Below are positions 5,573-46,605 of a DNA stretch of 64,000 nt, piece after piece. A model generated the notes under the pieces. That model worked only from the letters and a program-made list of their open reading frames with translations. It searched no databases and had not been told where the DNA came from. The translations under genes and the position numbers were made by a program. The DNA is taken from the NCBI GenBank assembly GCA_003153505.1, contig PLZA01000020.1, positions 62,001 through 126,000 of the forward strand, read 5' to 3'. The stretch comes from Candidatus Dormiibacterota bacterium (GTDB taxonomy: Bacteria > Chloroflexota > Dormibacteria > Aeolococcales > Aeolococcaceae). The first letter of the stretch is position 1; each line of letters starts with the position of its first letter.

Positions 5573-7228
5573 CTAGGAGACCGTGAGCGCGTGCTCGCGG
5601 GTGGTCCGGCGGATCGTACAGACGTCGCCTTCGCACGTTGACGCGATCACGTCCACCGTGAGGACGCCCCGGCCCCGGCTCCCGAGGCGCACCTCGATGG
5701 TGACCGGCAATGCGTCGAGCGCCCATGACCGTGGCCCCGTGCCGAGCAGCGTCTGCGGATCGGCGCTCACACTGATATGCACGGGCGGTCCCTGCTGGAC
5801 GTCGAGATCGGAGCCGCCGAGGTCGACGTCCGCAGCGAGGACCAGCGGGGCTCCGGTCACTCCCGCCAGAGCCAGTCCCTGCGACGGCGCCCCAGACTGC
5901 CCGCCGCCGATTGGGATCTCGGCAACCGCGCCCGAACGGACGTCAACGGTGACTACGCGATGGTGGTTCGTGTCCGCCACAACGAGGCGACCGTCAGGCA
6001 GCCCGTCGAGCCCGCCGGGCTCGTCCAGCGGCTCGCTGAGCAGCACCGTCCTGAGGGCGCCGTTCTCCCAGACTCGGAGGAGCGAGTTGAAGGTGTCCGC
6101 CACGCCGATCGACCCGCCCGGCATCGCCGCGACGCCCAGCGGATGCTGCAGCCGGGCGGTGTCGCGATCGCCATTCGCCGTCCCCCATTCGAAGAGGCCG
6201 GTGCCGACCAGGGTCTCCACCCGACCGTCGCGCAGCACCCGAAGCGCGGAGACCTCGGAGTCGGCAAACGCGATGGCCCCGCCGGCGAGGGCGGTGAGCC
6301 CGCTCGGCTGCGCCAGGTGCGCGCCGAGCGCAGGACCGTCGCGCAATCCTTCGGCGCGGCTCCCGGCCAGGGTGTCGACGGCGCCTCCCGGCTCAACCGC
6401 AACGATCCTGTGCAGCCCTGCTTCGGCGACCGCGATCCTCCCGTCGGCGAGGACGAGCGCGTCCCACGGGGATCGAAGGCCCGAGGCGAGCACGCTGCGG
6501 GCGCCATCCGTCAGGGAGATGGCCACCAGCTCGCCGGCCACCGTGTTGCAGACGAGCAGGCGACCCGAGTCGAAGCGCACCCCCTGCGGCTGCTGGAAGC
6601 CGCCGAATTCCTGCAGGATGGCCCCGTCCAGGTCGCAGACCAGCACCCGATCGTCGCCGGTGTCGGCGACGGCCAGCCTGCTCCCGCCATCCGACGCGAC
6701 CTTGCCTGGAAACGCGAGGGTGGTTTCGCTGCTGAGGGCGACCGGGGTGAACGCCGGGCCGACCGCGAGATCGCTCCGACCGTCGAGGAGTTGCTCGATC
6801 ACGCCGGCAAGCGCGGGACCGTTGCCCTCGCCGGAGGCCATCGCGACGACGTAGCCGTCGGGGTCGATGACCACCAAAGTCGGCCACGCGCGCACGCCGT
6901 ACTGCTGCCATGTCTCCAGCTCCGGGTCGTCCAGCACGGGATGGGTGATGCGATGGCGGGCGACCGCGCGACCAACGGCAGCGTGGTCCGACTCGTGGGG
7001 GAACTTCGGAGAGTGCACGCCGATCACCACGAGGCGCTCGCCGAACCGCTCCTCGAGCGGGCGCAGCTCCTCGATGACGCGAAGGCAGTTGATGCAGCAG
7101 AACGTCCAGAAATCGAGCACCACCACGCGTCCCCGAAGGTCACGAAGCGCGAGCGGGTGGTCGGTGTTGAGCCACCCCCCGGCACCACGGAGCTCCGGCG
7201 CGCGGACCCGCCCGACTGCGGTCGTCAT
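5573..7228 (-). CDS. Thioredoxin-like domain fused to NHL repeats
   Basis: 551-aa protein. Residues about 5-165 form a thioredoxin/AhpC-type domain with the motif FWTFCCINC (redox pair Cys45 and Cys48), the form typical of 'thioredoxin-like NHL repeat' proteins. NHL repeats making a propeller follow (about 180-470), then a beta-rich C-terminal domain with two Cys (STCEGDVC). No signal peptide is visible, so the location is uncertain. Known members are widespread and poorly characterised. The nearby CcdA-like and DUF255 thioredoxin-fold genes make a thiol-redox role likely. It starts 233 bases downstream of purA on the same strand, across the structured RNA region. Confidence 0.85.
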   Translation of the reverse strand: MTTAVGRVRAPELRGAGGWLNTDHPLALRDLRGRVVVLDFWTFCCINCLRVIEELRPLEERFGERLVVIGVHSPKFPHESDHAAVGRAVARHRITHPVLDDPELETWQQYGVRAWPTLVVIDPDGYVVAMASGEGNGPALAGVIEQLLDGRSDLAVGPAFTPVALSSETTLAFPGKVASDGGSRLAVADTGDDRVLVCDLDGAILQEFGGFQQPQGVRFDSGRLLVCNTVAGELVAISLTDGARSVLASGLRSPWDALVLADGRIAVAEAGLHRIVAVEPGGAVDTLAGSRAEGLRDGPALGAHLAQPSGLTALAGGAIAFADSEVSALRVLRDGRVETLVGTGLFEWGTANGDRDTARLQHPLGVAAMPGGSIGVADTFNSLLRVWENGALRTVLLSEPLDEPGGLDGLPDGRLVVADTNHHRVVTVDVRSGAVAEIPIGGGQSGAPSQGLALAGVTGAPLVLAADVDLGGSDLDVQQGPPVHISVSADPQTLLGTGPRSWALDALPVTIEVRLGSRGRGVLTVDVIASTCEGDVCTIRRTTREHALTVS

Positions 7229-7295
7229 GACGAGTCCATCATCTCGCGCAGGGGTGTGCGGCCGCGAACCAGGGGCGTCATTTCAAGGCCGCTGA

Positions 7296-7301
7296 TATAA
7301 T
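7296..7301 (+). promoter_or_regulatory. Extended -10 promoter (TGATATAAT) of a candidate small RNA
   Basis: A consensus TATAAT at 7296-7301 is preceded by TGA at 7293-7295, giving the extended -10 form TGNTATAAT. It is the best AT-rich -10 in the first 30 kb. No -35 is needed for an extended -10. It drives the plus strand although both flanking genes are on the minus strand. Confidence 0.55.
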
Positions 7302-7307
7302 CGCGGG

Positions 7308-7434
7308 AGAGGTGGGTTGGTGCACCGACCCAATGGCGCTCGGTTGGCGCCGCTGGATGTCGACACTCTTTTGAAACTCTCCCTATCCCTTCCTGACCGG
7401 CAGGGGGTGGCCCTCCGCCCCCTGCCACTTTTCT
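7308..7434 (+). ncRNA. Candidate structured small RNA, about 127 nt, unknown family
   Basis: Between two minus-strand genes, the plus strand holds an extended -10 box and then three hairpins in a row. Hairpin 1: GGGTTGG (7314-7320), loop TGCA, CCGACCC (7325-7331), 7 pairs including one G-U. Hairpin 2: GGCGC (7335-7339), 7-base loop, GCGCC (7347-7351). Then an unpaired pyrimidine-rich stretch and a 12-pair terminator stem with a T-rich tail. No gene follows on this strand (purA is antisense), so it looks like a stand-alone transcript rather than a leader. I could not match it to SRP RNA, 6S RNA, tmRNA or a known riboswitch. The 5' end is inferred from promoter spacing. Confidence 0.5.
7399..7433 (+). 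terminator. Rho-independent terminator of the candidate small RNA
   Basis: GGCAGGGGGTGG (7399-7410) pairs with CCGCCCCCTGCC (7415-7426) around a CCCT loop: 12 pairs with one G-U. The tail ACTTTTCT follows on the plus strand. On the minus strand the hairpin is not followed by a T tract, which favours plus-strand use, though it could also help end purA transcripts. Confidence 0.6.
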
Positions 7435-7461
7435 GAGCTTCGCGGGGCCGTCAGCCTGCCC

Positions 7462-9405
<1,944 letters not shown>

Positions 9406-9416
<11 letters not shown>

Positions 9417-10293
9417 CACCCACGGCGCACGATTGGCTCGCTACCGCGCCGCGCCGTGGTGGCCGGCGGCGTCGACCCTCGTCATCGCCGAACTGGGGCT
9501 GGGCGCGGCGCTGCTCCTCCCCATCACCTTCAGCGATCCGAACGGCGTGGATCCCTACCTGGCGCGCCTCAGCATCGCGTCGGTGCTCATCGCGGTGCCA
9601 TCGCTGCTCGTCCGGCGCCTCGCGCCGGCACGGCCGATCCTCCTGGCGCTCGCGGCGGTCGCCACCACCTACACGCTGCTCTCGGCCGGACCGCAGATCC
9701 TCTTCGACCTGCTCGGCTCCCACTCCGGGAGTTTCGACGCGCAGGTTTTCTGGGCATCGGTGGCGCAGGCTGCGGGGACACTGCTCATCGCGTTCGCCGC
9801 GGTGCGGACGGTCGCTCCGGAGTGGCGGCCGTCGGTCCGCATGCGCCATATCGGGCTCGGCGGCCTGGCGATCGGTGTGCTCGGGAGCGCCGTGCTGATC
9901 GGGCTCGGCCTCGCGCTCCCGGCAGGGCTCCTCGGCAGGGTCGCGCTGCAGCCTGTGGCGTTCGGTCGCGACTTTCCGTGGCTCGGGCCCGCCAACGCGC
10001 TCCAGGCCTTCTCGCAGGAGGTGCAATTCCGTGGCCTGCTCCTCGGCGCGCTCGAGCGCACCATGAGCCCGCGCTGGGCCAACGTCAGCCAGGCCGCGGT
10101 CTTCGCACTCGCCCACCTCGCGATCAGCTACGGGGGTCCCGAGGCGCCGTTCGTGCCGATCACCTTCCTCGTCGGCCTCGCATTCGGCTGGCTGGTGCGC
10201 CGCACCAACTCCCTGTGGCCGGCGGTGATCATCCACGCGGTCGCGGACATCGCGCTGCAGTTCGGCATCGTCCAGGGGCTCTATGGGTTCTGA
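9406..10293 (+). CDS. CPBP-family intramembrane metalloprotease (ABI/Rce1-like)
   Basis: About 295 aa, polytopic membrane protein with about eight hydrophobic segments. CPBP motifs are present: motif 1 as SQEVQFRG (Gln204-Glu205...Arg209, where most members have Glu-Glu), motif 2 FALAH, motif 3 HAVAD. The Glu-to-Gln change in motif 1 may reduce or alter proteolysis. GTG 9406, overlapping the HIT stop, is chosen because the longer frame from 9283 would run through HIT coding sequence and add a charged, non-membrane stretch. Members process prenylated or bacteriocin-type substrates or act as scaffolds; the substrate here is unknown. It overlaps the following gene by 11 bases. Confidence 0.85.
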
Positions 10294-46529: not shown

Positions 46530-46605
46530 CGACCCCGATCGGATTTGAACCGACGATCTCCACCTTGACAGGGTGGCGTGTTAGACCAGGCTACACCACG
46601 GGGCC
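46530..46605 (-). tRNA. tRNA-Asp (GTC)
   Basis: On the minus strand a full cloverleaf folds: acceptor GGCCCCG/CGGGGTC with one G-U pair, D stem GTGT/ACAC, anticodon stem CCACC/GGTGG with loop CTGTCAA (anticodon GTC), 5-base variable loop, T stem GTCGG/CCGAT with loop TTCAAAT, discriminator G. CCA follows at 46529-46527, so the 3' end appears to be encoded. TATGAT at 46623-46618 is a likely -10. Confidence 0.96.

Follow-up and report, generated by a model that had tools for sequence, protein, structure and literature searches.

The predicted RNA beside purA in the window (the whole 64,000-nucleotide stretch of DNA that was analysed) is not a singleton, but one member, here called type A, of a multicopy family whose RNAs share a CU-rich 3' module followed by an intrinsic terminator. 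For predicted type A itself, a free-standing, lineage-specific and undescribed regulatory RNA is the best reading and is supported by the comparison with its relatives, since the orthologs keep promoter and terminator, no Rfam family matches, the SRP RNA is encoded elsewhere and the relatives have no gene behind it on its own strand. Multicopy sibling small RNAs (sRNAs) are already known as a kind; as a family, those described here appear to be new. The restriction to one bacterial family, the multicopy nature, the conservation and the retained but distinct promoters of types A and B are read directly from the genome sequences.

The first-pass annotation of this DNA had proposed a plus-strand element with its own extended -10 between two minus-strand genes, and this arrangement was confirmed: TGATATAAT stands at 7293-7301, the thioredoxin-NHL gene and purA flank the element on the minus strand (see the table), and a -10 hexamer occurs at the same place in all type A orthologs, against 1.1 expected from shuffles. 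A promoter search of the region returned no -35/-10 pair, so that type A would rely on an extended -10 promoter. The annotation had also argued that no same-strand gene follows and that the element is thus no obvious leader. This holds well beyond the window: a cis-acting leader or riboswitch would be expected to keep a downstream gene on its own strand, and at 11/11 type A loci the downstream gene lies on the opposite one. A 13-codon ORF seen by eye within the RNA (ATG at 7333) was rejected, being absent from the orthologs. In the Rfam search that had been suggested, no family reached the cut-off at the type A locus, and the only permissive match was sraL, on the opposite strand, with E = 5; that the annotation could not match the element to SRP RNA, 6S RNA, tmRNA or a known riboswitch is in line with this result. 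SRP RNA, without a match at the locus, was found in this genome at C46, and 6S RNA was detected neither at the locus nor elsewhere in the genome. The Rfam models of FopS, LhrC, cuckoo and other sRNAs likewise gave no match at the cut-off. The sole Rfam match within the window is a tRNA gene at 46530-46605 on the minus strand.

Table. Positions of the type A features in the window and of related features at other loci (named by locus).
Feature	Position	Strand	Remarks
Thioredoxin-NHL gene	5573-7228	-	flanks type A RNA
Extended -10 promoter element TGATATAAT, type A	7293-7301	+	-10-like hexamer retained in 11/11 orthologs
Helix arm GGGAGAG, pairing with CUCUCCC at 7377-7383	7305-7311	+	7 pairs; from the fold; not in the first-pass annotation
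Predicted type A sRNA, about 125 nt	7308-7434	+	start inferred from -10, end from terminator
5' hairpin 1	7313-7320/7325-7332	+	8 pairs in the fold, loop UGCA; moderately conserved
5' hairpin 2, GC-rich	7335-7340/7346-7351	+	poorly conserved beyond genus
CU-rich module GAAACTCTCCCTATCCCTTCCTGA, proposed seed	7373-7396	+	near-invariant in 11 genomes; common to types B, C and D
Intrinsic terminator	7399-7434	+	12-pair stem 7399-7410/7415-7426, T-rich tail ACTTTTCT; from fold and terminator search
purA	7462-8748	-	flanks type A RNA
Phased TTTACA-like repeats before type B -10	L055 1300-1500; also L097, L100		
Type D near-duplicate pair	L249, L253 near 1500		GAAACCCAATCCCTTCC, then a larger GC hairpin; two contigs of this genome
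Lipoprotein start region	L096 about 9820-9850; L258 1500-1520		divergent from type C copy

The fold predicted for 7300-7440 reaches -63.3 kcal/mol (z -2.99; 1 of 200 shuffles was equally good) and contains both the two compact hairpins (7313-7332 with the UGCA loop and the GC hairpin at 7335-7351) and the 12-pair terminator with its T-rich tail (stem at 7399-7426) that had been noticed at first reading; the 12-pair stem was also among the 2 terminator-like sites that a terminator search returned for the region, where 0.4 were expected. To collect orthologs, 61 related genomes were searched at the DNA level, and a covariance model (R2) built on the 3' part was applied. In 11 genomes, which represent five genera of a single Ca. 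Dormibacterota family (f1), these searches found one strong type A ortholog apiece; this distribution, together with the negative Rfam search, agrees with the earlier suggestion of an undescribed RNA specific to one lineage. The 5' neighbour is the thioredoxin-NHL gene in 9 of the 10 other genomes and a DnaJ-like gene in G015, and the 3' neighbour is purA or a LamG-like gene, on the opposite strand throughout. Conservation of the stems, on which the first-pass annotation had made its proposal depend, was found for the terminator, invariant across the 11 orthologs, and to a moderate degree for hairpin 1 (92% of cells paired, with changes on one side only and none on both), and was poor beyond the genus for hairpin 2 (71%). 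The covariation test proposed with it met no informative variation in the type A stems: the terminator does not vary and the 5' hairpins show no excess.

What stays near-constant across the type A orthologs is GAAACUCUYCCUAUCCCUUCCUGA with the terminator, while the 5' half drifts. The functional conserved part of type A is probably this CU-rich stretch with the terminator, not the 5' hairpins, since hairpin 2 is so often unpaired and hairpin 1 has no double-sided change; the weight that had been placed on the compact hairpins thus shifts to the 3' module. The 7-pair helix that the fold adds to them would mask part of the module in this species alone and is missing in most type A orthologs. The 5' parts of the RNAs fold slightly better than shuffled sequence (mean z about -1).

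Weak secondary R2 matches in many genomes corresponded to a second RNA with the same core, and the module that the RNAs share reads GAAACYC, 3-7 nt, CCCUUCCUGA and then an intrinsic terminator. The 10-mer CCCTTCCTGA occurs 20 times in this genome against 5 times in a reversed control; 8 of the 20 belong to a strict GAAACYC, 3-7 nt, CCCTTCCTGA pattern with an intrinsic terminator directly after it, a combination found 0 times in the reversed control. In all, this genome carries 8-10 copies of module plus terminator, and the number reaches up to about ten per genome. Among the 110 genomes of the class, a gapped pattern gave 36 matches in 17 genomes and one reversed-control match; family f1 accounts for 35 of the matches, in 16 genomes, and the lone match outside it (G078) lies inside a coding gene and was rejected. 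Neither model R2 nor the patterns found anything credible beyond family f1. A scan of the genomes of 84,980 species gave the same picture: 26 of 27 Dormibacterota motif matches have a strong terminator directly downstream (the 27th is interrupted by Ns), against 0 of 50 matches from other organisms; three of the 27 are labelled only Chloroflexi or bacterium, and their contigs place them in the same set of metagenome-assembled genomes. The family has in common with sibling sRNAs several loci per genome with a conserved, predicted unpaired module and a terminator, and in types A and B the conserved -10 points to a promoter of its own for each RNA.

Type B, present in seven genera, adjoins a PMT-like gene; in this genus its other neighbour is nadA. 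Its -10 is found in 14/14 loci (2.0 expected), and its terminator stem is 100% paired, with 3 pairs changed on both sides and a covariation above that of all 500 shuffles. Upstream, TTTACA-like repeats stand 21 bp apart in 14/14 loci, with a third 10 bp further upstream in 11/14 (45 such hexamers in total against 7.9 expected) and a weaker fourth, seen by eye, between the others. Phased direct repeats are typical of OmpR/PhoB-type regulators, and the array looks like a response-regulator box of this type. The type C copies are scattered: this genome holds six and G003 four, and four more, which lack an exact GAAAC, occur in G002, G004 and G005. They have the stem GAGRCCCCUGGC..GCCGGGGGUCUC, whose high covariation score, equalled or exceeded by 19 of 500 shuffles, comes without an excess of double-sided changes. 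Their -10 is present in 4/15 against 1.6 expected, so that no clear promoter emerges. The blocks upstream of two type C copies (L041/L087, L043/L089) resemble each other (ATGTTCG..TC.AACAAGAACGATCAC...CCGCAACATCGCGCA) and may represent a common operator. One type C copy lies close to a ParB gene.

These copies bear on two other explanations. The first, that the module is a repeated DNA element, mobile or a protein-binding palindrome, with no function as RNA, could draw on the scattering of type C, on its copy near the ParB gene and on the near-duplicate type D; we consider it most improbable, given that types A and B retain positions across genera as well as promoters, that type B stems change in compensation, that the unpaired letters are more conserved than their flanks and that the copies are consistently oriented towards T-rich tails. 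The second is quite unlikely in our view, and would make the module a 3'-end element for processing, stability or enhanced termination, types A and B being merely short transcripts that end with it. It would suit the lack of evident type C promoters and the copies located shortly behind a stop codon. At L040/L086 the distance from a 68-codon ORF is 19 nt, at L219 the stop is about 20 nt away, and on an IMG/VR phage contig (L265 9327-9345) AACCCATTCCCTTCCTGA and a hairpin come directly after a stop codon, within a structural operon to judge from its structural-looking genes. Most type C copies, however, have no adjoining same-strand stop, types A and B keep promoters with no gene in the transcript, and about 8-10 copies per genome are far below the number of genes that need terminators. 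The matches on viral contigs other than L265 lie inside genes and are implausible.

The mechanism to which we give moderate credence is that of sibling sRNAs with a common CU-rich seed, expressed from different promoters and tuning mRNAs by base pairing. Each RNA would combine a variable 5' part, the conserved CU-rich module and an intrinsic terminator; the module would act as the shared seed, and by pairing with purine-rich sites that resemble AGGAAGGG in the regions where translation starts it would lower the translation or stability of several mRNAs. Type A would be driven by an extended -10, probably through the housekeeping sigma factor, and type B through direct repeats of the kind bound by OmpR/PhoB-type response regulators, and the different promoters would let different signals reach one set of targets. 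In predicted folds the module is more open than the RNA around it (0.50-0.69 unpaired against 0.42-0.49 for the whole RNA), and the pairing of the type B/C motif is more favourable in start regions than inside genes (-1.61, against -0.53 for shuffles, sd 0.41). This preference does not extend to strong duplexes, whose share in start regions falls below the shuffled mean. Neither the type A motif nor the 12-nt core prefers start regions more than its shuffles do. Few of the 10-mer matches outside the sRNAs lie opposite a start region, and GGAGG, rather than GGAAGG, predominates among the ribosome-binding sites of this genome. The strongest individual candidate is found in G003 (L096/L258), where the start region of a lipoprotein gene is complementary to both module boxes (-26.7 kcal/mol) and could be a target or a decayed copy of the module.

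This weak target signal would also suit a module that is recognised by an RNA-binding protein, the RNAs serving as decoys or platforms as CsrB does for CsrA and pairing being secondary. The two boxes, GAAAC and CCCUUCCUGA, both near-invariant and separated by a variable 3-7 nt, and single-stranded letters that are invariant across genera, fit such a site; each RNA carries one module rather than many, however, and conservation of this sort is equally found in the seeds of sibling sRNAs, FopS among them, and we regard this explanation as doubtful. A slightly more doubtful reading would see in the family a Dormibacterota-specific RNA hub, in which some ten transcripts in each genome, whose 5' parts and promoters are unrelated, end in one near-invariant two-box 3' module (GAAAC...CCCUUCCUGA plus terminator) that a dedicated RNA-binding protein or 3'-end machinery recognises, and into which phages and mobile regions would tap with copies of their own.

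If the RNAs are sibling sRNAs, they have several counterparts. The CcsR or cuckoo RNAs of Alphaproteobacteria are multicopy and carry a CU-rich, anti-Shine-Dalgarno-like motif, CUUUCCUCCC, in hairpin loops; the Dormibacterota RNAs resemble them in copy number and in the nature of the motif, and differ in its letters and in having a linear module. The csRNAs of streptococci form a set of sibling sRNAs in which hairpins enclose a conserved unpaired region, and they are controlled by a response regulator, as type B may be; all of them are under one regulator, whereas the type A and type B promoters differ. They belong to the CiaRH regulon, which serves here as a comparison system (PMC3091779). 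LhrC1-5 of Listeria monocytogenes are likewise multicopy and under response-regulator control, with CU-rich UCCC motifs and a single-stranded stretch between two stem-loops; their motif occurs three times, also in loops, in contrast to the one linear module found here (PMC4132741). FopS, a family of paralogous sRNAs in Bacteroides thetaiotaomicron, has the same seed-carrying sibling architecture (PMC11697453), in another phylum and with another seed, which lies at the 5' end, whereas the proposed Dormibacterota seed adjoins the terminator; the Rfam model of FopS has no match here.

A literature search joining Dormibacterota with small RNA found no paper, nor did the literature searched yield any description of a regulatory RNA from Ca. 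Dormibacterota, a phylum of uncultivated soil bacteria. Used as a 24-nt probe or as bait in pulldowns, the near-invariant module would offer a handle on post-transcriptional control in this phylum, and the family would add an independent case of CU-rich sibling sRNAs beyond the well-studied phyla. A similar intergenic block, CACCTCACTCCCTTCCTGA, lacking a clear terminator, is present in genus g11, where it is conserved in two genomes (G016 and G021; L215 and L232, near 1500).
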